NCBI GenBank assembly: GCA_022792815.1
Contig: JAAWBS010000016.1
Coordinates: 62,001-126,000 of the forward strand
DNA length: 64,000 nt
Direction of reading: 5' to 3'
Origin: Hungatella sp.
GTDB lineage: Bacteria; Bacillota; Clostridia; Lachnospirales; Lachnospiraceae
In this document: piece by piece, positions 40,733 to 52,250 of the stretch
How positions within the stretch are numbered: position 1 is the stretch's first letter
Layout of the letters: each line of letters begins with the position of its first letter
Program-made: the position numbers and the translations under genes
Notes under the pieces: model-generated
Seen by the model: only the letters and a program-made list of their open reading frames with translations
Databases searched by the model: none
Told to the model about the DNA's origin: nothing

Positions 40733-42280
40733 TCAGACAAAATAGTCGCCATACTCGCAGGTCAGATATCGAATCATTTCTTCCTGGCTTTTCCCGGCCA
40801 GTGCCAGGACAAAGGAAGTGGTATGAAATCGGTGTTTTAAGGTGGTGAATCCCAGGCTTAAAAGGTGTTCGATCTCCGAGGGCGTGACGAAGAAATTAAT
40901 CTTTATCACAGGAAAGTTCTTGCCATGAAGAAGATTGTAAATACGTGTGGAGAAGCAGAAAATGTAATCATAGTCCATGGACTTTAGCCGGTGAATTTCG
41001 TTGATATTTAAGGTGCCGGTCCATTTCAGATTAATTTTGTCGTGGATCTGCTCCAGAAAGAAGCTGACGCGCTCAAAGTTAATGCTGGTGACAATCACCA
41101 CTTTTTTGTGTTCTCCGGTTATGGTCTGGTTGCGGAGAATATGCTTTTGGATTAAAAGGGTGAGAGTGGAAGTATGTTCTTCTGCAAAATTAAAGTTGTA
41201 GGCAGCTTTGAAAAGAACGGCATATTTTTCAATGGTCTGGTACAGACCGGGGAACTGCCCCCGTGTATTTTCCACAGTCTTGTCCACAAATGTGCAGTGA
41301 AAATGGGCCAGAGTGATTTCCCGGTAAAAATAGTTGTACAGCTCCAGAATAAAATCATCCCGGATGAAAAAGGGCTGAGGGAGGCTTGCTATGACATGTT
41401 CCACGAAATCTTCTGTGGTATACCATAAGCGGTAATCCACAGGAAAATCAAGACTCCTGGAAAAATTCATCATGCTGACCGCAACATTGCAGAACCAGTT
41501 TACCGGGGAGGAATCGGAAAAATAAAGGTTCATGGGGGCAAGGGGCAGGTGGGAAGAAAAGGTCATGTCCTTTGTCACGGGCCGTATAATCATAATACAG
41601 AAAAACAGGAGCAGGAACTTTTTGGAGGGATAGTTAATGGACAGGGAATGGTGTGCCAGAAAGCTTTCCAGATGCTCCACAGCCTGTGGGCTGACAGGCA
41701 GCAGGTAGGGCTCTGCCAGGGCATAGGTCTGGTTCTCTAACGGTGTGTTGGCAAAACGGGCTTCAATCTGGTTCTCGGCAGTAAATTCCAACAGGGGATG
41801 GAGAATATCAATGACCAGGAATCGAAGCATCAGTTCGTCTCCTACTATGGTGAGTCCCTTGGTCTTTACCGTTTGGAGAGTCAGCTTATAGTCTTTTAAA
41901 AATTGTCTGAGATGGGCCGTGTCCTGCTTCTTGGTAGTGAGGGAGAATCCCCACTGTTCATAGAGGGCGCTGGCGTTGACGCAGCCATGAAAGAATATGG
42001 CCACAATCATGACACGAATTCGCTCCAGCCAGGAGCTGGCATAGTCTTTCATGGATATATGCCTGGCAAAATCCACATAGTCACTGTAGCTTAACCGGCA
42101 GATACAGTGGCTTTTTTTGATTTCGATTAAAGGAGATTCGGAGTAGAGGTTGATCTGTTCAATGGCACGGCGGATGGAAATCTCATTTTTCCCAAACTGG
42201 AAGGCAACGGTTGAGAGCAGGGTTCGCTCCCTCTTTTGAATAAAGCGCAGCAGAATCAAGTCATTATAGCTGAGTCCCAT
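40733..42280 (-). CDS. PRD/Mga-type transcriptional regulator of the adjacent PTS operon
   Basis: A 515-residue regulator resembling BglG/LicR/Mga activators. The N-terminal helix-turn-helix (about 1-75; LLSTVAFQFGKNEISIRRAIEQIN) is followed by a second HTH-like region, a long helical part in the position of the PRDs (about 180-395), and an EIIB-like C-terminal fold (KVVIVTSINFERVSFFLEQI). The EIIB part lacks an obvious phosphorylatable Cys, so PTS control would fall on His residues in the middle. AAAAGGAG precedes the ATG at 42280. It is divergent from the EIICB operon and lower in GC than neighbours, which suggests acquisition together with it. Confidence 0.75.
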   Translation of the reverse strand: MGLSYNDLILLRFIQKRERTLLSTVAFQFGKNEISIRRAIEQINLYSESPLIEIKKSHCICRLSYSDYVDFARHISMKDYASSWLERIRVMIVAIFFHGCVNASALYEQWGFSLTTKKQDTAHLRQFLKDYKLTLQTVKTKGLTIVGDELMLRFLVIDILHPLLEFTAENQIEARFANTPLENQTYALAEPYLLPVSPQAVEHLESFLAHHSLSINYPSKKFLLLFFCIMIIRPVTKDMTFSSHLPLAPMNLYFSDSSPVNWFCNVAVSMMNFSRSLDFPVDYRLWYTTEDFVEHVIASLPQPFFIRDDFILELYNYFYREITLAHFHCTFVDKTVENTRGQFPGLYQTIEKYAVLFKAAYNFNFAEEHTSTLTLLIQKHILRNQTITGEHKKVVIVTSINFERVSFFLEQIHDKINLKWTGTLNINEIHRLKSMDYDYIFCFSTRIYNLLHGKNFPVIKINFFVTPSEIEHLLSLGFTTLKHRFHTTSFVLALAGKSQEEMIRYLTCEYGDYFV

Positions 42281-42322: not shown

Positions 42323-42351
42323 ATTCAAAACTTAGCTGAATATTCTGACAA
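42323..42351 (-). promoter_or_regulatory. Promoter of the PRD regulator gene
   Basis: Minus strand TTGTCA (42346-42351), 17 nt, TTGAAT (42323-42328). The -35 lies inside the left 22-bp arm of the palindrome, so a protein bound there would affect this promoter. Confidence 0.5.
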
Positions 42352-42504
42352 TATATTCCAGGAAAAGCCATTACGCCATGGAGCTGAGACCATAAAAAAC
42401 AGGAGGGCCCTCTGCCCGAGTGTTTTTTGCTTTATTGGGCTCAGCGGAATGCTTGGCGTACGAAGGCTTTGTATGGAATATATTGTCAGAATATTCTCTC
42501 AGCT
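42334..42504. repeat. 171-bp near-palindrome between the divergent PRD regulator and PTS operon
   Basis: The left arm element 42338-42359 recurs perfectly inverted at 42475-42496 (22 bp; GAATATTCTGACAATATATT and on). Matching pieces continue outward (AGCTGA/TCAGCT) and inward: AAAGCC/GGCTTT, TACGCCA/TGGCGTA, GCTGAG/CTCAGC and AAAAAACA/TGTTTTTT around a GGAGGGCCCTCTG centre. It could be a pair of regulator sites, a decayed miniature transposon, or a cruciform-forming control element. No protein is encoded. Confidence 0.85.
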
Positions 42505-42585: not shown

Positions 42586-42614
42586 TTGAAGCACCCGGTA
42601 AAATCATGCATAAT
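42586..42614 (+). promoter_or_regulatory. Promoter of the PTS-lyase-GH4-NagA operon
   Basis: TTGAAG (42586-42591), 17 nt, CATAAT (42609-42614), about 55 nt before the EIICB start. The region 42505-42585 is AT-rich with T7 tracts and no other feature. Confidence 0.5.
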
Positions 42615-42668
42615 AAAATCAGTTCATGAAGCGCTTCAGGTTCAATCTAAAAACAAGAGGATGAAAAA

Positions 42669-44246
42669 ATGAATACAAAAAAATCCAGTTGGAAAGAAAG
42701 TATCCAGACATTTGGCCGCTCTCTTTTGCTTCCCATTGCCCTTCTTGCGCCGATTGGTATGGTAATGGGAATCTGCAGCGCATTAGGACAGTCCTATATG
42801 ATTGCAAAGTTTCCTGTTTTGGGAAATGAGACTCTTCGTCTGATCCTGTCCAGCCTTCAGACAATCACCAGTATTGTATTTAACAACATTCCTATTTTAT
42901 TTGCCATGGGTGTGGCTCAGGGAATGGCAAAGCATGAAAAGGGAATTGCAGTGTTTGCAGCTACGGTGGGATATCTGACGCTGAACGTGGTTATGAGCGT
43001 CTATTTAAAGGCCACAGGGACTCTGGCCGATCCGGCTGTGGCAGCCCAGGTAGGCCAGGGAACGGTTCTCGGAATTCAAACCCTTAAGATTGAAGCCCTG
43101 GGAGGCCTGATTGCAGGCATAGTGGCGGCCAAGGTAGCCGACAGGTTCTACCGTCTGGAACTTCCCCTGGCCTTTGCCTTCTTTGGCGGCAAGAAATCAA
43201 TCCCCATCATTACGTTTGCGGCCATGGTTCCCATCGGACTTGTGATCCCGGTTATTTGGAGTATCTTTACTTCCTTCCTCAACAGTATCTCCTTCATCTT
43301 TATGGCTCCTCACATCGGAAATGCCATTTATTACACGCTGAACCGGGCACTCATTCCTTTTGGACTTCATCACGTGTTGGCATCGCTGATTCGGTTTACG
43401 GAGGCAGGCGGTGTGTACATGATCAATGGAACAGAGTATGTGGGAATTTTGAATGCCATGAATGAGATCCAGTTTAATCTGGGACCGACCAGTGAATACT
43501 GGAGCCAACTTATGCCTATCTTGTCCAGTTACCTGGGCGGAGCTCAGATGCTGACGACACTGTTCCGGGTTCCGGCTATCGGTCTGGCTATGTATCACAC
43601 TTCTTATTTAAAGAACAGAAAAATCGCCAAGGGTGTTCTTCTTACCTGCTGTCTGACAGCCTTTTTGGGAAATATTACGGAACCTTTGGAATTCTCATTT
43701 TTATTTATTTCACCGTCCCTGTTTATTCTCTACTGTATTATGTGCGGCCTTGGTGCACTGCCTTACCAGATGTTAAAGATCAGTATTGGATATATCAGAG
43801 GAACTATCTTTGATTTTGGAATTTTCGGACTGCTGTATGAAAATACCCACTGGCCGGCACTGATTCTTTTGGGAGTCATCAATTTCGTGGCATTTTATGT
43901 AGTATTCCGCTGGTATATCGAAAAATTCAACCTGGAGACCCCAGGGCGTGAATCTTTTGAGGTGGAGGAATCTGCAAGTGTTCTGCTCAAGGAAAAGAAC
44001 TGGCCGGCTATTGCTGCCATTGTCATCGAGGGGCTGGGCGGAAAGGCCAATATTGTAAATGTAGAGAACTGCATTTCCAGGCTTCGTGTCGACTTAGTGG
44101 ACGGAGACAAGGTGGATCAGGTTAAGATCAAGGACTCCGGGTGCGCAGGTATTTTCTTCCCTTCCGAAAAGCATATTCATGTGGTGTTTGGACCTCATGT
44201 GGAGTTTGTCCGTCATGCGGTGGATGATGAACTGAAGAAATCATAA
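42669..44246 (+). CDS. PTS EIICB component, glucose/N-acetylglucosamine/alpha-glucoside family
   Basis: A 525-residue sugar phosphotransferase component. Residues 1-425 are the EIIC membrane domain (about ten helices) of the Glc-NAG family, with PFGLHHVLASLIRF and GNITEPLEFSFLF near the sugar site. Residues 440-525 are EIIB with the phosphocysteine Cys468 in NCISRLRVDL. There is no EIIA domain, so a shared EIIA must donate phosphate. The sugar enters phosphorylated at C6. The GH4 and NagA partners argue for an N-acetylglucosamine-containing or alpha-glucosidic conjugate. AAGAGGATG precedes the ATG. Confidence 0.9.
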   Translation: MNTKKSSWKESIQTFGRSLLLPIALLAPIGMVMGICSALGQSYMIAKFPVLGNETLRLILSSLQTITSIVFNNIPILFAMGVAQGMAKHEKGIAVFAATVGYLTLNVVMSVYLKATGTLADPAVAAQVGQGTVLGIQTLKIEALGGLIAGIVAAKVADRFYRLELPLAFAFFGGKKSIPIITFAAMVPIGLVIPVIWSIFTSFLNSISFIFMAPHIGNAIYYTLNRALIPFGLHHVLASLIRFTEAGGVYMINGTEYVGILNAMNEIQFNLGPTSEYWSQLMPILSSYLGGAQMLTTLFRVPAIGLAMYHTSYLKNRKIAKGVLLTCCLTAFLGNITEPLEFSFLFISPSLFILYCIMCGLGALPYQMLKISIGYIRGTIFDFGIFGLLYENTHWPALILLGVINFVAFYVVFRWYIEKFNLETPGRESFEVEESASVLLKEKNWPAIAAIVIEGLGGKANIVNVENCISRLRVDLVDGDKVDQVKIKDSGCAGIFFPSEKHIHVVFGPHVEFVRHAVDDELKKS

Positions 44247-44261
44247 GGAAAGAGGCGGAGT

Positions 44262-45626
44262 ATGGGTGGATTATGTGACTCAAAAAGCAAGCTGAATGAC
44301 CGGGGAATCAAGGAGTTGTTGAGCCCCAGGAATGAACTGGCCACATGGCTGAAAGTGGAGCAGGCTCTGGCCAGGGCCCAGGCTTTGGAGGGTGTGATTC
44401 CAAAAGAAGGGGCAGAGGATATCGGAAGGCGCTCTTTGGAAGAACTTGATTTGGAGGAAATGGAACGAATCAAGGAGAAGGTGGGCCATGGTTTCGTACC
44501 TTTTGTAAAGGTTTTGGTGAAGGCCTGCGGGGAAACAGGGGGACGGTATGTCCATTACGGAGTGACAACCCAGAATATTCAGCAGACATCACAGCTTTAT
44601 ATCGCCAAGGAGGTTACGGCTGTCTATAAGGACTTTCTGGCGGATATTCTCTCTCACCTCTCGGTTTTGGCAAAAGATCACGCAGATACGGTTATGGCCG
44701 GAAGGACCCATGGAAGGCACGCCATCCCCATTACCTATGGATATAAGGCGGCAGTGTGGCTGAGTGAGCTTTTAAGCGGTATTGAGCGGTTGGAAGAGTG
44801 CGAAAAGAGAGTGTTTGTGTGCATGATGGGGGGAGCAGCGGGAGGCTTTCACGCCATGGGGGAAGTGGGACCTAAGGTGCAGGCCCGTGTGGCGGAGGAA
44901 CTTGGCATGAAGCCCATGGATGTGCCAAGCCGCAATATGAGTCAAATGAAGCTGGAATATATGATGAATCTCTGCCTTCTGTGCAATGTGCTTCACAAGA
45001 TGGCGGAGGAGGTGTACTACACCGGCTTAGAGGAGTTCGGGGAGGTCAGTGAGGCATTTACTCCAGGAACCATCGGAAGTTCCACCATGCCTCAGAAGAT
45101 TAATCCCAAGCTGGCAAAGGGGATTATTGCAAATTCGCAGAAGCTTTATTCTCTTCCGGGCACGGGAATGTATTCTTCCTGCCGCATGTTCGAGGGGGAT
45201 TCCAGTTCGTATATGCTGTTTGATCATCTCATGAAAGAGGCTATGGAACTGACCTGTGAGGTTCTCATACGGGCGGAGGAGCTGACGAGAACCATTTATG
45301 TCAATAAAGAGCGGATGAAAGCCAATGCCAATAGGAATCATGGTCTGGATAACAGTGAGTATATTATGATGAATGTGGCGGCAAAGATCGGCAAGGACCA
45401 GGCCCATAAGCTGATGTATGAGAAGGCTATTGCCGCGGAGACGGAGGGAAGGGAGTATATCGAGGTTCTCATGGAGGATGAGACCTTAATGTCCATGTTC
45501 ACGGAGGACGAGATGAGAGCCATGCTGCAGCCGGAACATTATACGGGAATCTGCAATGTTTTGGCTGTGGAAATGGCAAAAAAGGGAGAGGCGAAAGCCA
45601 GAGAGATGAAGGGAGAAAGGTCATGA
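44262..45626 (+). CDS. Fumarase/aspartase-superfamily lyase (adenylosuccinate-lyase-like) in a sugar operon
   Basis: A 454-residue lyase. The signature loop GTIGSSTMPQKINP, the catalytic-base region AGRTHGRHAIPITYG and the substrate segment VHYGVTTQN are present, so the enzyme should be active. Superfamily members break a C-N or C-O bond beta to a carboxylate and release fumarate or an analogue. TTQN in place of TSQD/TSCD separates it from PurB and from carboxymuconate cycloisomerase, and no purine gene is nearby. Lying between EIICB (16 nt upstream) and GH4 (4-nt overlap ATGA), it probably acts on the non-sugar part of the imported compound. Confidence 0.82.
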   Translation: MGGLCDSKSKLNDRGIKELLSPRNELATWLKVEQALARAQALEGVIPKEGAEDIGRRSLEELDLEEMERIKEKVGHGFVPFVKVLVKACGETGGRYVHYGVTTQNIQQTSQLYIAKEVTAVYKDFLADILSHLSVLAKDHADTVMAGRTHGRHAIPITYGYKAAVWLSELLSGIERLEECEKRVFVCMMGGAAGGFHAMGEVGPKVQARVAEELGMKPMDVPSRNMSQMKLEYMMNLCLLCNVLHKMAEEVYYTGLEEFGEVSEAFTPGTIGSSTMPQKINPKLAKGIIANSQKLYSLPGTGMYSSCRMFEGDSSSYMLFDHLMKEAMELTCEVLIRAEELTRTIYVNKERMKANANRNHGLDNSEYIMMNVAAKIGKDQAHKLMYEKAIAAETEGREYIEVLMEDETLMSMFTEDEMRAMLQPEHYTGICNVLAVEMAKKGEAKAREMKGERS

Positions 45627-46945
45627 GAGAATCTCATGTGATTACCATAGCCGGAGCGGGAAGCGCCAGGGTGCCTGCCCTGGTTGGGACATTGGTGAAT
45701 TATAAAGAGCGTTTTCCGTTGTCCAGGATTATTTTTTATGATATTGACGAGGAACGGATGGGACTTATGGAGGCATATGACAGGCTGGTACTGAAATGTT
45801 TTTATCCGGAGTGTGAGGTTGTCTTCACCACAGATGAGGACGAGGCTTACAGGAGTACGGATTTTATCTTCTGTCAGATGCGGGTGGGAAAGACAGCCAT
45901 GCGCTCTCTGGATGAGAAGATCCCCCTGAAATACGGCCTGGTGGGGCAGGAGACCTGCGGTCCCGGAGGATTTGCCTATGGAATGCGTTCTTTAGGAGCC
46001 ATGAAGCGCATGGTGGAAAAGGTGCGTTCCTACTCAAAGGATACCTGGATTTTGAATTATACCAACCCGGCCGCTATTGTTGCCCTGGGACTGGATAAGA
46101 TGTTTCCTGATGATAAACGGATTTTGAATCTCTGCGACCAGCCTTATTCTCTGATGAAGAGCTACTCAAAGATCCTTGGAGTTCCCCAGGAGAAACTGAG
46201 AGCCCGGTATTTTGGTTTGAATCATTTCGGATGGTTTACCCAGCTAAAGGATACGGACGGGACGGATCATTTTGATACCTTAAGGACCTATCTGAGGGAC
46301 CATGACTTTAAGCCTTTTAATGCGGAGCAGCGTTCCAAGTCCTGGCTGGATACCTATGTGCGTGTCAACAAGTATATGAAGTACTTAGATGAGTATGTGC
46401 CCACCACTTATCTTCAATATTATATGTTCCCGGATGAGATTGCGGCGGAAAGCGACCCTGAGTACACAAGGGCGGATGAGTCCAGGGATTCCAGGGAGAA
46501 AGAGGTGTTTGAAGCCTGTCAAAGGGCAGTGGGGAAGGATTCTATGGACAGGGAGGATATGCTGACCAACAGCGTGTTCGGCAATCTCATGGTGGAGGTT
46601 GCAGAGTCCATTGCCTATGATTTGAACAGGGAGTTTATCGTCCTGGTTCGAAATGAAGGGATCATCAGCAATTTTGAGGAGGATGCCATCGTCGAGGTGG
46701 CGGGAACCATAGGGAAGGACGGGGCAAAGGGATATCCTTTTGGTCCCATCGGACCGTACTACAAGGGCCTTATGGAGGGGCAGTATGCCTATGAGCTTCT
46801 GACGGTGGAGGCATTTATGGAACAGGATTATCAGAAGGCGTTGATGGCGCTGATTCTGAACCGGACAGTGGTGGATCCTTCCAGGGCGAAGGCTGTTTTG
46901 GATGATCTTATGGAGGCCAATCGGGATTACTGGACACTGAGATAG
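45623..46945 (+). CDS. Glycoside hydrolase family 4, 6-phospho-alpha-glucosidase-like
   Basis: A 440-residue NAD- and metal-dependent glycosidase. The dinucleotide motif TIAGAGSARVPALV opens the protein. Cys171 (LNLCDQPYS) and His201 (FGLNHFGWF) match the metal ligands of GlvA-type enzymes, and length equals GlvA/MalH (about 440). GH4 enzymes oxidise C3 of a 6-phospho-glycoside, eliminate the aglycone, then re-reduce; they tolerate alpha or beta and unusual aglycones. Here the product is probably a hexose- or GlcNAc-6-phosphate that feeds NagA. It overlaps the lyase by 4 nt. Confidence 0.88.
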   Translation: MRESHVITIAGAGSARVPALVGTLVNYKERFPLSRIIFYDIDEERMGLMEAYDRLVLKCFYPECEVVFTTDEDEAYRSTDFIFCQMRVGKTAMRSLDEKIPLKYGLVGQETCGPGGFAYGMRSLGAMKRMVEKVRSYSKDTWILNYTNPAAIVALGLDKMFPDDKRILNLCDQPYSLMKSYSKILGVPQEKLRARYFGLNHFGWFTQLKDTDGTDHFDTLRTYLRDHDFKPFNAEQRSKSWLDTYVRVNKYMKYLDEYVPTTYLQYYMFPDEIAAESDPEYTRADESRDSREKEVFEACQRAVGKDSMDREDMLTNSVFGNLMVEVAESIAYDLNREFIVLVRNEGIISNFEEDAIVEVAGTIGKDGAKGYPFGPIGPYYKGLMEGQYAYELLTVEAFMEQDYQKALMALILNRTVVDPSRAKAVLDDLMEANRDYWTLR

Positions 46946-46953
46946 GAGGCATT

Positions 46954-48174
46954 ATGGTTCTCTATTCAAAAAATATTATTTTGGAACATGACACATTTGA
47001 CGGATTTCTTAAGATTCAGGACGGGAAGATCGAGGGACTGTACAAGGATTATGAGGGGCCATATGAGGATTTCTCTGATGAGATTGTCTTTCCGGGATTT
47101 ATTGATATCCATGTCCACGGATGGGCGACAGGTTCTTTCTGGTTTCAGAAGACCAGGGAATCTGTGAAGGAGATGTGCAGAACGCTTCCTTTTGGCGGAG
47201 TCACCTCTTTTTTGGCTACCTCAGGAGCCGATACCATAGGGGAGATCAAAAAATGCATCGGCGCGGCAGATGATGCATGGGAGGAGCTTGAGGAGGGAGA
47301 GATAGAGAAGAGGGGCGAGAAGGGGGCAGAGCTTTTGGGAGTCCATCTGGAGGGGCCCTTTATCAACCCTCAGTACCGGGGGATGCAGAAAGAGGAGTGC
47401 TGTATAGAGCCGGATCTTGAGGTGATGAAGGACCTGTATGGCAGCTTCCGCCACAGACAGCTGTGCCGTCATATGACCATTGCCGTAGAGCGCGGTCATG
47501 CCAGGGAGGTGCTGAATTTTTGCAGGGAACAGGGAATTCAGACCGCAATAGGCCACAGCGGAGCCACCTTTCAGGAGATTGCCTCCATAAGAGATGCGGG
47601 GGTAGGGGGAGTCACCCACATGTTCAGCGGAATGAGGGGATTCCATCACCGGGAGCCGGGAGTGGTGGGAGCTGCCCTGTATTTTGATGATCTGATGTGT
47701 GAGTTCGCCAAACAGACGGGGATGACAGTATCCCATGAAGCCTTTGACATCGCTTACCGCCTCAAGGGAAGTGAGAGAATAATCTTATCTACTGACTGCA
47801 GCGGTCTTGCCAGGACCCAAAGTCAGTTCGATCATTATGTGAGAAAAATCAGGTTTGTAAAGGATGGGGACTTGGTGCGGTTGGATCACTATGACGGCAG
47901 GCAGGAGTGGATTGATCCGGGAGATTATGAGGCAGTGAAAGAGCTGGAGATGAGTTATGGGAAGTCGGTAAAAAACATGGCGGAGCATACCAGGGTTACC
48001 TGGCATGACATCATGAGGATGACAAGTTTAAATCCGGCCAGGTATATTCATGTCAATGACAGAAAGGGGAGCATAAAGCCGGGTATGGATGCCGACCTTA
48101 CGATTATGGATCAGGAATTAAACCTGGTGAGCACATTCTGCAGGGGGTGGGAGATTAGGGATTACTGTCAGTAA
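46954..48174 (+). CDS. nagA: N-acetylglucosamine-6-phosphate deacetylase
   Basis: A 406-residue amidohydrolase. Motifs: PGFIDIHVHGW, the metal Glu in GVHLEGPFINP, AIGHSGATF, THMFSGMRGFHHREPG and the catalytic Asp in LSTDCSG; the C-terminal GSIKPGMDADLTI closes the barrel. It removes acetate from GlcNAc-6-P to give GlcN-6-P. It is longer than E. coli NagA (382). TAGGAGGC precedes the ATG, 8 nt after GH4. Its presence is the best evidence that the imported compound contains an N-acetylated hexosamine. No nagB is in the window. Confidence 0.87.
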   Translation: MVLYSKNIILEHDTFDGFLKIQDGKIEGLYKDYEGPYEDFSDEIVFPGFIDIHVHGWATGSFWFQKTRESVKEMCRTLPFGGVTSFLATSGADTIGEIKKCIGAADDAWEELEEGEIEKRGEKGAELLGVHLEGPFINPQYRGMQKEECCIEPDLEVMKDLYGSFRHRQLCRHMTIAVERGHAREVLNFCREQGIQTAIGHSGATFQEIASIRDAGVGGVTHMFSGMRGFHHREPGVVGAALYFDDLMCEFAKQTGMTVSHEAFDIAYRLKGSERIILSTDCSGLARTQSQFDHYVRKIRFVKDGDLVRLDHYDGRQEWIDPGDYEAVKELEMSYGKSVKNMAEHTRVTWHDIMRMTSLNPARYIHVNDRKGSIKPGMDADLTIMDQELNLVSTFCRGWEIRDYCQ

Positions 48175-48198
48175 TATTTGAAAAATTGTAAAAAGTGC

Positions 48199-48252
48199 TT
48201 GCAAAGACTGCCATGGAGTGATAAAATTTTGACAAGGTTAACACTGTTAACC
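48199..48252 (+). promoter_or_regulatory. Promoter with palindromic operator upstream of the flavoprotein gene
   Basis: TTGCAA (48199-48204), 17 nt, TAAAAT (48222-48227). Starting about 8 nt after the -10 is the perfect dyad GGTTAAC-ACT-GTTAACC (48236-48252), which would cover the transcription start and suits a repressor. So the flavoprotein has its own control as well as possible read-through from nagA. Confidence 0.65.
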
Positions 48253-48291
48253 GCATTTTTTGCAAAAAAGAAAAAAGGGAGAGATGCAAAG

Positions 48292-50889
48292 ATGAAAAAA
48301 AGCAACAGACGTTTGGCTGCCCTCTCGATGGCAGCAGTCATGGCAGCTTCTGCGACCGCTTGTCAGAGCCAGCCTGCTGAAACCTCTGCGCCGGAGACCA
48401 CTACGGCGGCACCGGAGACCACTACAGCGGCACAGGCAGAATCACTGTACACCGCAGGCACTTACTCTGCCTCCGAGCAGGGATTTGGCGGCCCTGTCAC
48501 CGTGACCCTTACGGTCAGCGACAGCGAGATCACCGATGTGGCCATCGAGGGTGAGGGGGAGACACCTACCATCGGCGGGGCGGCTCTTGACACCTTAAAG
48601 CAGGCCATTCTGGATGCCCAGTCCGGAGAGATCGATGCCGTGGCAGGAGCTACCATCACCTCCGAGGCAGTGAAGAAGGCAGCCGCAGGCGCTATCGCGC
48701 AGGCCAAGGGAGAGGCTCCTGCACAGGGAGGCGATCTGGCCTTTACAGCCGGAACCTATACCGGCACAGGGGAAGGTTACAACGGACCGGTGGAGGTCAG
48801 TGTAACATTTGACGATAAGGCGGTTACCGCCATCGAGATTACCTCCAGCAAGGAGACCGAACATGTAGGTGACATCGCATTTGAAATTATGATTCCTCAG
48901 ATGATCGAGGCCAACGGAACCGGAGTGGACGGCGTATCCGGAGCTACTTTCTCCAGCCGTGCCTTAAAGACTGCGGTCAACGCCGCTGCCGAGGCTGCGG
49001 GAGTCACCAATGCCTCTCAGTTTGCCGCCAATACCGTAGAGGTGCAGCCTCAGGCTCCCATCGAGGACACCTGGGATGTGGTAATCGTAGGCGCCGGCGG
49101 AGCCGGAATCAGCGCTGCGGCTCAGGCGGCCCAGGACGGCAACACGGTTCTGGTGCTGGAGAAGAATGCCGAGGTGGGAGGCAACACCCTCGTATCCGGC
49201 GGTCAGTATCAGAGCGTGATGCCCTATCTGGTATGGGATGAGAAGGATCCCGATGCCACCACAGGCACAGGCTTTGACGGCAATACATACAACAAGGTGA
49301 AATCCGTCAACGGATGTATCAACGAGTTAAAGATGATCTACGAGTGGTCCGAGGAGGAGTTTGATGCAGACTACTACAAGGATCATGAGTACGTGGCAGG
49401 AGATGCCGCAGAGCTATCTAAGCACGGTGTTCACGCGGACTATCTGCCCACGCTTCAGGCTCTGAAGAAAGAGATCAAGGCATACCTTGACTGGGCACAG
49501 CCGAAACTTGATGCAGGTACTCCGGAGTCGGAGCTGACCCTGTTCTCCACCCTGAACCTGCACATTTTCCAGACCTATTACGGAGGACTGCGTCAGAGTG
49601 CCGACGGTTCTGAGTGGATCTACGGCAATGTGGATCTGGTGAAGCAGTTCATCGAGGACGGCCAGGACATCAAGCCGTGGCTGGAGTCTATGGGAGCAAC
49701 CTTTGTGGAAGACACCCAGCCCACCCTCATCGGTGCACTGTGGTACAGAGAGAACGAGTTCATCGGCGCCAATGTGGATGCAGACGGAGACGGAACGCCT
49801 GAGGAGTATAAGGGCCGCTGGGGCACCTACTTCATGGCTCCTATGACCGAGTTCCTTCAAAAGGACGAGAAGAATCAGATCATGACCAGAACCACAGCCG
49901 AGGAGCTGATCGTGGAAGACGGCCGTGTAACCGGCGTGAAGGCTACCATGTATGACGGCACAGAGGTTACCGCCAAGGCGACCAAGGGTGTCATCCTGGC
50001 GACCGGCGGATACGCAGCCAACATCGACAAGGTTGTGGAGACCAACAACTACTGGTCACCGGAGTTTGTGACCAATGCCATCAAGACGACCAACCGGAAT
50101 TCTCTTACCGGCAGCGGTATTGAGATGGCTCAGGAAGTGGGAGCAGATGTGACAGGTGAAGGCTGGACTCAGATGATGCCCATCAGCTGGGTGGACAACG
50201 GAAACCTGGCATTCGGCGGCGGCAACTATGCCATCTACATCAACCCGACCACCGGCAAGAGATTCGTGGATGAAGGGTCCGAGCGTGACGTTCTCTCTCT
50301 CGGCGAATTCCAGAACGGTATCGAAGTCAACGGAACCAAGGGCGTATTCATGGAGATCTACAATGCCTCCGAGATGATCCCGGGTCCCATCCAGCTTGCT
50401 CCGGAAGGAGATTATGACGGCAGGTATTACAGAAGAAATGCCAACGAGGAAGAACTGGCTGCTCTGTTCGCCCAGATCGGCGTGACAGCAGATGCCAAGA
50501 CAGTTCTCGAGACCATCGAGAAGTACGACATGGCTGTCATGGGCCAGGGCGAGTTTGAGGATGCAGGAAAGGCCATCGCCTCCAGAACCATCGGCGATGT
50601 GGAGAAGAATGCGGACGGAAGCTACAACGTAGATTCCTACAAGCTGGAGGGCACGGCTCTCACCATCCGTCTCATGGCTCCTTCCACCCACCACACCATG
50701 GGCGGCCTCGTAGTCGACACGGAGCGCCATGTACTGGATGAAAGCGGCAACGCCATCGCAGGACTCTATGCGGCAGGCGAGGTAACCGGCGGCATCCACG
50801 GCGGCAACCGGCTTGGCGGCAACGCGATCACCGAGATCATCGTATCCGGACGCACCGCGGCAAAAGCGATCACTGCTGACAATCAATAA
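48292..50889 (+). CDS. FMN/FAD fumarate-reductase-like lipoprotein (flavocytochrome/urocanate-reductase family)
   Basis: An 865-residue extracellular flavoenzyme. Signal peptide with lipobox ATAC (Cys24); a Thr/Glu/Ala spacer; two FMN-binding domains with covalent-flavin motifs VAGAT (Thr121) and VSGAT (Thr219); then an FAD domain from about residue 262 (VVIVGAGGAGISAAAQA) and C-terminal HHTMGGLVVDT and NRLGGNAITE, which match the fumarate reductase/urocanate reductase/KstD fold. No haem motif is present; electrons would pass through the FMN groups. It would reduce an enoate (fumarate, urocanate, cinnamate-like) outside the cell. Flavin attachment needs an ApbE enzyme, not in this window. The start is set by the signal peptide. 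Confidence 0.88.
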   Translation: MKKSNRRLAALSMAAVMAASATACQSQPAETSAPETTTAAPETTTAAQAESLYTAGTYSASEQGFGGPVTVTLTVSDSEITDVAIEGEGETPTIGGAALDTLKQAILDAQSGEIDAVAGATITSEAVKKAAAGAIAQAKGEAPAQGGDLAFTAGTYTGTGEGYNGPVEVSVTFDDKAVTAIEITSSKETEHVGDIAFEIMIPQMIEANGTGVDGVSGATFSSRALKTAVNAAAEAAGVTNASQFAANTVEVQPQAPIEDTWDVVIVGAGGAGISAAAQAAQDGNTVLVLEKNAEVGGNTLVSGGQYQSVMPYLVWDEKDPDATTGTGFDGNTYNKVKSVNGCINELKMIYEWSEEEFDADYYKDHEYVAGDAAELSKHGVHADYLPTLQALKKEIKAYLDWAQPKLDAGTPESELTLFSTLNLHIFQTYYGGLRQSADGSEWIYGNVDLVKQFIEDGQDIKPWLESMGATFVEDTQPTLIGALWYRENEFIGANVDADGDGTPEEYKGRWGTYFMAPMTEFLQKDEKNQIMTRTTAEELIVEDGRVTGVKATMYDGTEVTAKATKGVILATGGYAANIDKVVETNNYWSPEFVTNAIKTTNRNSLTGSGIEMAQEVGADVTGEGWTQMMPISWVDNGNLAFGGGNYAIYINPTTGKRFVDEGSERDVLSLGEFQNGIEVNGTKGVFMEIYNASEMIPGPIQLAPEGDYDGRYYRRNANEEELAALFAQIGVTADAKTVLETIEKYDMAVMGQGEFEDAGKAIASRTIGDVEKNADGSYNVDSYKLEGTALTIRLMAPSTHHTMGGLVVDTERHVLDESGNAIAGLYAAGEVTGGIHGGNRLGGNAITEIIVSGRTAAKAITADNQ

Positions 50890-51060: not shown

Positions 51061-51118
51061 ATAGGATATGGCAACAGAAAGATACACTGGAAGACAAGAG
51101 AGAAGAGGATGGGGAGAG

Positions 51119-51718
51119 ATGGAGAGAGACAGGAAGAGATCTGACGATACAGAGTCCGGTTTCAGCCGGGCCGGTAGGCTGGCGATCATGTTTTGGACCA
51201 TGGCAAAGATCGGCTGCTTCACCTTCGGCGGAGGGTGGAGCATCATCGGACAGATACAGATCGAGTTTGTGGAGAAGAGGAAATGGATGACAGAGGAAGA
51301 GATCATCGACTTTATGTCCCTGGCCAAGTCATTTCCCGGGATCATGATTATCAACATGTCAGTACTGTGTGGGTATGCCATGGAGGGGGCGCCGGGGGCA
51401 CTGGCCGCAGCATTTGGCCTGGCGGCTCCGGCGGTGGCGGCCATCGGCCTGGTAACCTATTTTTACGATTCTCTAAAAAGCAACCTCTATGTGGAAAAAG
51501 TCCTTAACGGAGTTCGGTGTGTGGTGATTCCCATCATCCTGCAGGCCTCCTGGAAGCTGAAGGATAAATCTTTGACCGGAACGATCTCCTGTCTTTTGCT
51601 GGCCGTCTCCTTTGGGGTGTGCGCGTTTACCGATGTGAGCAAGCCGCTGGTGATGACCGCAGGGGCGCTTTTAGGGCTTTGGGTGTGGAGAGGAGGAAAG
51701 TCTCATGGTGCTGCTTGA
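51119..51718 (+). CDS. Chromate transporter family protein, first half
   Basis: A 199-residue half-size CHR protein with about five or six helices and the motif FTFGGGWSIIGQIQ at the first helix, then KSFPGIMIINMSVLCGY. In split systems two such halves pair as antiparallel subunits. Substrates are chromate/sulfate or, in many anaerobes, unknown anions. The frame is open to ATG 51068, but that codon coincides with the predicted transcription start; ATG 51119 with GGATGGGGAG upstream is preferred. It overlaps the second half by 14 nt. Confidence 0.83.
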   Translation: MERDRKRSDDTESGFSRAGRLAIMFWTMAKIGCFTFGGGWSIIGQIQIEFVEKRKWMTEEEIIDFMSLAKSFPGIMIINMSVLCGYAMEGAPGALAAAFGLAAPAVAAIGLVTYFYDSLKSNLYVEKVLNGVRCVVIPIILQASWKLKDKSLTGTISCLLLAVSFGVCAFTDVSKPLVMTAGALLGLWVWRGGKSHGAA

Positions 51719-52250
51719 GCTGTTTTGGTCCTTTATGAAAATCGGGTTTTTCAGCTTCGGGGGACTGACCATGATCCCGGTGATCAATGACGAGGTTCTG
51801 CTTCACGGCTGGATGACAGCAGATGAGGTGATGGACATCGTAGCTGTGGCGGAGATGACCCCCGGTTCCTTGGGAATCAACTGCGCCACTTTCGTGGGGC
51901 TGCGGACAGCAGGGCTGATCGGCGCCTTCAGCGCTACCTTGGGAGTGATGATGCCGTCCCTTACCCTGTGTATGGCGGCAGCCCATTTTATCCTGAAACT
52001 AAAGGGAAATCAGGTGATGGAGAGTGCCATGAAGGGAGTACGCCCGGTGAGCATGGGGATGCTTTTGGCGGTGGCGGTGACATTGAGTATCAGCACCTTC
52101 TGGACAGAGGGAGGGGCGGTGACCCTGTCAGGGGTTCAGTGGAATCTGGGACTGATTGCCTTCCTGTGCGCAGTGCTGCTGTTCCGCTTTAAGGTCAGTA
52201 TCCCAAAGACGATTCTCTTCGCGGCGGTCCTGGGGCTTCTCATCGGGTGA
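51705..52250 (+). CDS. Chromate transporter family protein, second half
   Basis: A 181-residue partner of the preceding gene with the matching motif KIGFFSFGGLTMIPVINDE and AEMTPGSLGINCATFVG. GGAGGAAAG lies 8 nt before ATG 51705. It ends in a convergent overlap: the last 123 nt are also covered by the C-terminal codons of the leftward LysR gene. An organic or dicarboxylate-type anion is as plausible as chromate, given the linked hydratase. Confidence 0.83.
   Translation: MVLLELFWSFMKIGFFSFGGLTMIPVINDEVLLHGWMTADEVMDIVAVAEMTPGSLGINCATFVGLRTAGLIGAFSATLGVMMPSLTLCMAAAHFILKLKGNQVMESAMKGVRPVSMGMLLAVAVTLSISTFWTEGGAVTLSGVQWNLGLIAFLCAVLLFRFKVSIPKTILFAAVLGLLIG

Follow-up and report, generated by a model that had tools for sequence, protein, structure and literature searches.

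Among described catabolic systems, the closest to the one reported here are the MurP-MurQ/MurR route for N-acetylmuramic acid (MurNAc), in which a phosphotransferase system (PTS) importer is combined with one lyase that cleaves an acidic substituent off the phosphorylated amino sugar, and the chb operon of E. coli (the GH4 enzyme ChbF together with ChbG), in which PTS import is combined with GH4 and with removal of the acetyl group from the still intact phospho-glycoside. In addition, two accounts describe the alf-2 operon of L. casei, by which fucosyl-N-acetylglucosaminyl (GlcNAc)-Asn is used via glycosylasparaginase and aspartate decarboxylase (PMC6960285), and a diacetylchitobiose route of L. 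paracasei comprising a PTS, GH170 and NagA (PMC12791066). Here we describe an operon of Hungatella sp. (Lachnospiraceae; assembly GCA_022792815.1), located in a stretch of 64,000 nucleotides (contig JAAWBS010000016.1, positions 62,001 to 126,000), hereafter the window. Four genuine plus-strand open reading frames (ORFs; 42669-48174) encode a PTS EIICB, a lyase of the fumarase/adenylosuccinate-lyase superfamily, a GH4 phospho-glycosidase and a NagA-like deacetylase, with intergenic distances of 15, −4 and 8 nt; the ORF list agrees exactly with a preliminary description, made from the sequence alone, of four tightly packed genes. It is likely that this operon serves the catabolism of an amino-sugar conjugate bearing a four-carbon dicarboxylate, from which the lyase would release fumarate.

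The likeness to the MurNAc route extends to an RpiR-type regulator, found in many of the loci compared below, and to products that would pass to NagA and NagB. MurQ, however, is a SIS-fold etherase that releases lactate, whereas the present lyase has the fumarase/adenylosuccinate-lyase fold and its product is most likely fumarate; a scan of six window proteins showed no SIS-fold MurQ etherase. The chb operon differs in acting on beta-linked chitobiose, in having no lyase and in the family of its PTS. AlfH, the permease of alf-2, is of the major facilitator superfamily (MFS) type. With alf-2, the present operon would share the catabolism of an amino sugar and a C4 amino acid by enzymes for both halves, but uptake there is by AlfH, and neither a PTS nor a lyase appears in the section titles of that account (PMC6960285). 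No fumarase-superfamily lyase was seen in the available parts of the alf-2 (PMC6960285) and L. paracasei diacetylchitobiose (PMC12791066) accounts, and no description of such an operon was found in the open-access full-text literature, a scope outside which preprints and most subscription papers fall.

The operon was compared across 95 loci: the window, 80 relatives from GTDB contigs, three records of a plasmid collection (L008-L010) and 11 further Lactobacillales. The GTDB contig scan, for which the lyase was the bait, yielded 119 relatives, 80 of which were retained; because it was seeded with two conserved peptides, the sample is biased towards close relatives. For the further Lactobacillales, 22 genomes had a match and 17 regions were taken, 11 being new and six (L157, L163-L167) being dropped as copies. 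Three genomes (G773, G210 and G211) corresponded to loci already included (L043, L031 and L052), and two were left out: G864, whose match coordinates are those of plasmid locus L009, and G566, with two stops within the match. Lactobacillales, assigned by name or search order, make up 25 of the 95 loci. Many loci are near copies within one genus, and the counts given here do not represent independent events. Genes were counted as neighbours when they lay on the same strand as the lyase and no more than a few genes and 5 kb away from it; by this rule GH4 is present in 11 loci, compared with 14 that have GH4 anywhere. Neighbour labels were obtained by clustering and BLAST, and ten cluster representatives plus a few further proteins were run against family libraries.

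In 89 of the 95 loci, EIICB lies immediately 5' of the lyase (85 whole genes and four fragments), with a median gap of 14 nt. These orthologues are 52-100% identical to the window EIICB (median 55%), compared with about 37% for MalX-type transporters, and their hosts include Lachnospiraceae, Erysipelotrichaceae, Bacillaceae, Lactobacillales and Enterobacterales. The six exceptions have an alpha-glucoside PTS instead (L009, L042 and L080), an interrupted EIICB (L020 and L168) or EIICB on the opposite strand (L171). A PRD/Mga-type or RpiR regulator is found close to the lyase in 85 loci. Other genes are more variable: the operonic form of NagA occurs in 18 loci, EIIA in 17, fumarase in 13, GH4 in 11, malic enzyme in ten and YdjC in seven, while GH4, NagA, YdjC, fumarase and malic enzyme are all missing from 63 of the 95 loci. 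On the Klebsiella plasmid pC9_001 and in Proteus, the locus consists of regulator, EIICB and lyase only. EIICB and the lyase are thus the core of the system, and GH4 and NagA are add-ons.

The conserved operon anticipated by the preliminary description, for which a search for gene order across genomes had been proposed as a check, is borne out. Besides the constancy of the EIICB-lyase pair, the set EIICB, lyase, GH4 and NagA is present in eight loci including the window, one of which (L019) has EIIA after the lyase, and a ninth locus (L025) carries lyase, EIIA, GH4, NagA and malic enzyme downstream of an EIICB fragment; the order is thus neither fortuitous nor peculiar to this genome, the latter being one of the two outcomes that the preliminary description named as refuting it. 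The Citrobacter and Kluyvera loci (L086, L088 and L089) have the order EIICB-lyase-NagA. Within the family, the lyase was detected in three of 200 genomes, and within the order in two of 392 (E ≤ 1e-90), the own genome being included in both counts; the two other family genomes, represented by short loci, show EIICB-lyase-GH4 in the same order as the window. Such a patchy distribution is as expected for a catabolic cassette. Among the matches listed for the plasmid collection, EIICB hits above 50% identity all lie in lyase-bearing loci, and in two plasmid records the annotation goes no further than placing the lyase in the adenylosuccinate lyase family, near a PTS protein. The Citrobacter lyase DNA had no match in 20,395 E. 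coli records at blastn sensitivity. A more distant relative in Cereibacter (L011, 41% identity), which like other low-identity plasmid matches falls outside the 95 loci, stands beside TRAP and ABC transporters and not beside a PTS.

EIICB, GH4 and NagA look like members of known transporter and enzyme families, as they would if this were a common PTS operon for an alpha-glucoside or GlcNAc with an unrelated lyase hitch-hiking. The near-constant pairing of EIICB with the lyase in loci found with the lyase as bait, with GH4 and NagA as the variable parts, makes this highly improbable. With EIICB and the lyase as the core, the probable substrate of the lyase is the sugar phosphate delivered by the transporter, as opposed to whatever GH4 leaves behind. 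The division of labour first suggested, in which GH4 and NagA process the sugar and the lyase takes what is left, is at odds with the 63 loci that lack accessory enzymes. A variant of it would have GH4 or a chromosomal glycosidase act first, the lyase then freeing fumarate from a succinyl-, malyl- or aspartyl-type aglycone. GH4 is indeed retained beside the lyase in Lachnospiraceae, and a different GH4 is found in Companilactobacillus/Ligilactobacillus, but with GH4 in so few of the loci and the lyase tied to the transporter and not to a glycosidase, we regard this order of events as unlikely.

By its Lyase_1 domain, its conserved C-terminal GSSxMPxKxN loop and its fold, the window lyase belongs to the fumarase/aspartase superfamily; a structure model gives the fold class and cannot distinguish cleavage of a C-O bond from that of a C-N bond. 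The best NCBIfam scores are 296.5 (XcbD), 286.3 (PRK08937) and 240.1 bits (purB), and the protein remains under the cut-off of every NCBIfam model matched, including purB (326.2 bits) and argH (76.1 against 279.5 bits). PurB is encoded elsewhere in the own genome (396.3 bits, above the purB cut-off), as are a separate ArgH-like ORF with an SRNDQ motif (in L002) and an aspartase (AspA) scoring above one aspartase subfamily cut-off; where the own ArgH has SRND, the lyase reads TTQN. Identity of the lyase with the cell's PurB, ArgH or AspA was rejected on the grounds of these separate genes and of the purB and argH scores, so that the other refuting outcome named in the preliminary description, a purine or arginine enzyme, likewise did not materialise. 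Its nearest solved relatives include PurB, CMLE, Tad1, CreD and Mesorhizobium 3c8t, from which it is set apart by falling below all NCBIfam cut-offs, by being encoded behind a PTS and by the presence of the cell's own PurB elsewhere.

Class II fumarase is encoded in the same strand run as the lyase in 13 loci, all of them Lactobacillales (13 of 25), and malic enzyme in ten, nine of which are Lactobacillales. Nine Lactobacillales loci have both, in the order EIICB, lyase, malic enzyme, fumarase (L028, L043, L068, L155, L156, L158, L159, L161 and L162), the malic enzyme and fumarase genes overlapping or lying at most 66 nt apart; some of these operons have YdjC and/or a regulator interposed. Of the two enzymes, only fumarase is encoded in L031, L040, L052 and L171. 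All four fumarases scanned match the class II fumarase model best and score higher as fumarase than as aspartase, two lying above the class II cut-off of 664.75 (673.3 and 687.7) and two below it (659.4 and 642.3). The malic enzyme label is based on Pfam in the case of L068 and, in L068, L155 and L028, on matches to parts of NCBIfam models. Fumarase followed by malic enzyme converts fumarate to pyruvate. Because the operons of relatives hold these two enzymes, fumarate, already put forward in the preliminary description, is a well supported candidate for the lyase product; judged by gene content, their presence is hard to read otherwise.

Two unrelated deacetylase families, NagA and YdjC/ChbG, occur beside the lyase, which argues for an amino sugar as part of the substrate, again as initially proposed. 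The window NagA scores 232.1 bits against TIGR00221, above the cut-off of 225.65, and seven of 16 operonic counterparts in relatives fall below it (217.8-223.5). The 17 operonic sequences aligned together form one clade (support 100/99). Like NagA, the GlcNAc-6-phosphate deacetylase, all 17 retain the metal ligands, the general-base Asp and the HHREP Arg; unlike NagA, they lack DGxH, the stretch being replaced by KQ[TS]G[MLI]T. The histidine of DGxH is absent from all 18 operonic proteins (these 17 and that of L170) and is kept in all 24 other NagA homologues, namely 22 of 25 non-operonic matches (the other three are without locus) and two from the own genome. We take this residue to be His251 of E. 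coli NagA, binding the alpha C1 hydroxyl, and the HHREP Arg to bind the 6-phosphate. Given that assumed role, loss of the histidine suggests that the substrate of operonic NagA may be a 6-phosphorylated sugar whose C1 does not carry a free hydroxyl. ChbG in the chb route likewise handles a 6-phosphorylated sugar with C1 not free.

Another, better-scoring NagA homologue is encoded elsewhere in all 16 genomes with operonic NagA that were searched and in the own genome, so that the operonic copy is probably not meant to process ordinary GlcNAc-6-P. The GlcNAc-6-P intermediate that had been deduced from NagA is thus not required in free form, the protein belonging to a distinct clade that has lost the histidine presumed to bind the C1 hydroxyl. 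A third NagA-like protein of the own genome (G000:C34:35656-36753, in L094) has a long branch and a score of 204 bits; it keeps the histidine, but in DLNH instead of DGxH. NagB was detected in all 52 lyase genomes tested, which represent mixed groups (43 over the cut-off), and NagA in 41 of 41 and 16 of 16. At the same E-value limit, NagB is also present in 146 of 148 Lactobacillales at large (61 over the cut-off), and the co-occurrence of NagB and NagA was rejected as proof of an amino-sugar product because it does not discriminate.

Taking together which genes are present, how they are conserved, which enzymes lie beside them and which residues have changed, we infer the following scheme. 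EIICB would import a hexosamine to which a malyl- or aspartyl-type unit is attached and phosphorylate the sugar at O6. The PurB/fumarase-like lyase would abstract a proton from the carbon adjoining a carboxylate, with expulsion of the sugar as leaving group, giving fumarate and a hexosamine-6-phosphate that would be passed on to NagB and then glycolysis; the operonic fumarase and malic enzyme of many Lactobacillales would convert the fumarate to pyruvate. In the lineage of the window, operonic NagA would take off the N-acetyl group from a sugar that still bears its C1 substituent, and GH4 would offer an alternative opening of an alpha-glycosidic bond. The closest solved chain to the window GH4 is the 6-phospho-alpha-glucosidase 6vc6 (399 bits), and the protein combines the GH4 domains with a CDxP motif in the form CDQP, which we read as alpha-type on the assumption that CDMP marks alpha-type GH4 enzymes. 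It belongs to a tight clade with members 78-93% identical to it in nine other loci, and may accept an amino sugar as glycone. Aldo/keto reductases (cluster 13) and HAD phosphatases (clusters 8 and 28) are found near some lyases and fall outside the proposed mechanism.

Our favourite candidate for the substrate is N-acetylglucosaminyl-alpha-O-malate, the bacillithiol precursor, or its deacetylated form. It fits the add-ons in that the alpha bond suits GH4, the N-acetyl group suits operonic NagA and YdjC, and the malate ether suits elimination. GlcNAc-malate is a real metabolite, formed in bacillithiol makers when BshA joins UDP-GlcNAc and L-malate, according to PMC4360819, and the title of a reference cited there gives the alpha linkage. 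As a tentative possibility, the operon may therefore represent a nutrient pathway for the bacillithiol skeleton, in which glucosaminyl- or GlcNAc-alpha-O-malate is imported and phosphorylated before a new 6-phospho-glycosyl-malate lyase cleaves it to fumarate and glucosamine-6-phosphate. The conjugate would be released by bacillithiol-making Firmicutes and used by gut, food and soil bacteria, operonic NagA or YdjC deacetylating it while still intact. No earlier catabolic route for the bacillithiol backbone is known to us.

The main rival is a substrate with an N-linked C4 unit, that is, a glycation product of aspartate: a Heyns-type compound with aspartate on glucose C2 would give glucosamine-6-P and fumarate, and an Amadori-type compound, fructosyl-aspartate, would give 1-amino-fructose-6-P and fumarate. 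Fructose-aspartate receives a passing mention in PMC12675984. Several of the nearest solved lyase relatives are C-N lyases (PurB and CreD), a Heyns substrate would need only EIICB, the lyase and NagB, matching the two-gene loci, and some hosts are, by name, organisms of fermented food or tobacco. On the other hand, glycated aspartate leaves NagA, YdjC and the alpha-type GH4 unaccounted for, which suit an N-acetylated alpha-glycoside better, and no deglycase was recognised among the annotated neighbour clusters (ten clusters family-searched); this substrate seems to us rather unlikely. Catabolism of a glycosyl-asparagine such as GlcNAc-Asn is very improbable, since elimination from Asn gives no free fumarate, the natural linkage is beta and would face an alpha-type GH4, and the ten annotated neighbour clusters included no recognisable gene of the asparaginase type. 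What speaks for it is that L. casei has an operon of comparable logic for a glycoamino acid, which encodes glycosylasparaginase and an aspartate 4-decarboxylase (alf-2; PMC6960285).

Several observations weigh against the catabolism of an amino-sugar dicarboxylate conjugate with fumarate release. The product is deduced from a minority of loci, accessory enzymes being absent from 63 of 95 and fumarase seen in Lactobacillales only, and the fumarase of L171, at 519.3, also exceeds the cut-off of 510 for an aspartate ammonia-lyase subfamily. Both YdjC proteins that were scanned (194.3 and 218.1) lie below the ChbG cut-off of 227. In Atopococcus and Alkalibacterium (L031 and L052), both operonic NagA and YdjC are found around EIICB-lyase, together with fumarase, and two deacetylases are hard to square with a single acetyl group. 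GH4 would be redundant and left without an explanation if the lyase alone frees the sugar, although it is kept in the Lachnospiraceae loci. Finally, in Companilactobacillus/Ligilactobacillus (L009, L042 and L080) the lyase gene comes last in an alpha-glucoside PTS operon that has a GH4 of the CDMP type and lacks NagA, GH13 also being present in two of the three, which suggests a glucose version of the substrate.

The features of the operon and its upstream region are listed in Table 1. The window EIICB has PTS_EIIC and PTS_EIIB domains; its nearest NCBIfam model is the MalX type TIGR02004, and its score (405.6 bits, cut-off 632.2) places it outside MalX.

Table 1. Coordinates of the operon genes and upstream features in the window.
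Feature	Position	Strand	Remarks
Divergent transcriptional regulator, probable operon regulator	40733..42280	-	Pfam Mga HTH, 23.8 bits
Probable sigma-70-type promoter, TTGAAG-17 nt-CATAAT	42586..42614	+	Read from the sequence; putative function
Palindrome TGAAGCGCTTCA directly past the −10; cre-like or operator	42627..42638		Sequence and aligned relatives
PTS EIICB	42669..44246	+	525 aa; MalX/glucose/GlcNAc superfamily, separate clade by identity
Fumarase/adenylosuccinate-lyase superfamily lyase	44262..45626	+	454 aa; Lyase_1 and ADSL_C
GH4 NAD-type 6-phospho-glycosidase, alpha-type by motif	45623..46945	+	440 aa; N and C domains of Glyco_hydro_4
NagA-like deacetylase (operonic NagA), clade specific to these operons	46954..48174	+	406 aa; TIGR00221

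A divergent regulator next to the operon is also found in many relatives, and the homologue in L021 has PRD and Mga domains. The TTGAAG block is invariant across six aligned Lachnospiraceae upstream regions, and a palindrome, AAGCGCTT or AAGGCGCCTT, is present in aligned relatives at the position matching the window palindrome, which may be a cre-like site. Between regulator and operon promoter lies a miniature inverted-repeat transposable element (MITE)-like element of about 160 bp (42338-42496) with imperfect terminal inverted repeats of 32 nt. At least 25 near full-length copies are present in the genome, this one included, and the element is absent from the corresponding site in L012, the lyase of which is 90% identical.

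Directly 3' of the operon, 48178-50889 encodes a lipoprotein-like flavin reductase with two FMN_bind stretches and FAD_binding_2, resembling flavocytochrome c/fumarate reductase, which had no cluster partner among the proteins of the other compared loci. If it is an extracellular fumarate-type reductase, it would be an interesting neighbour of the operon. Further downstream (51068-52250), two short adjacent membrane proteins resembling a split chromate-transporter pair are followed by a divergent LysR-like regulator, as judged by eye only.

The occurrence of a two-gene PTS-lyase cassette in many genera implies a nutrient for which no name was found in the literature searched. If the substrate is an amino-sugar conjugate of malate or aspartate, bacteria of the gut and of fermented food would be able to exploit bacillithiol debris or glycated aspartate, the fumarase superfamily would gain a reaction, and NagA a clade of changed specificity.

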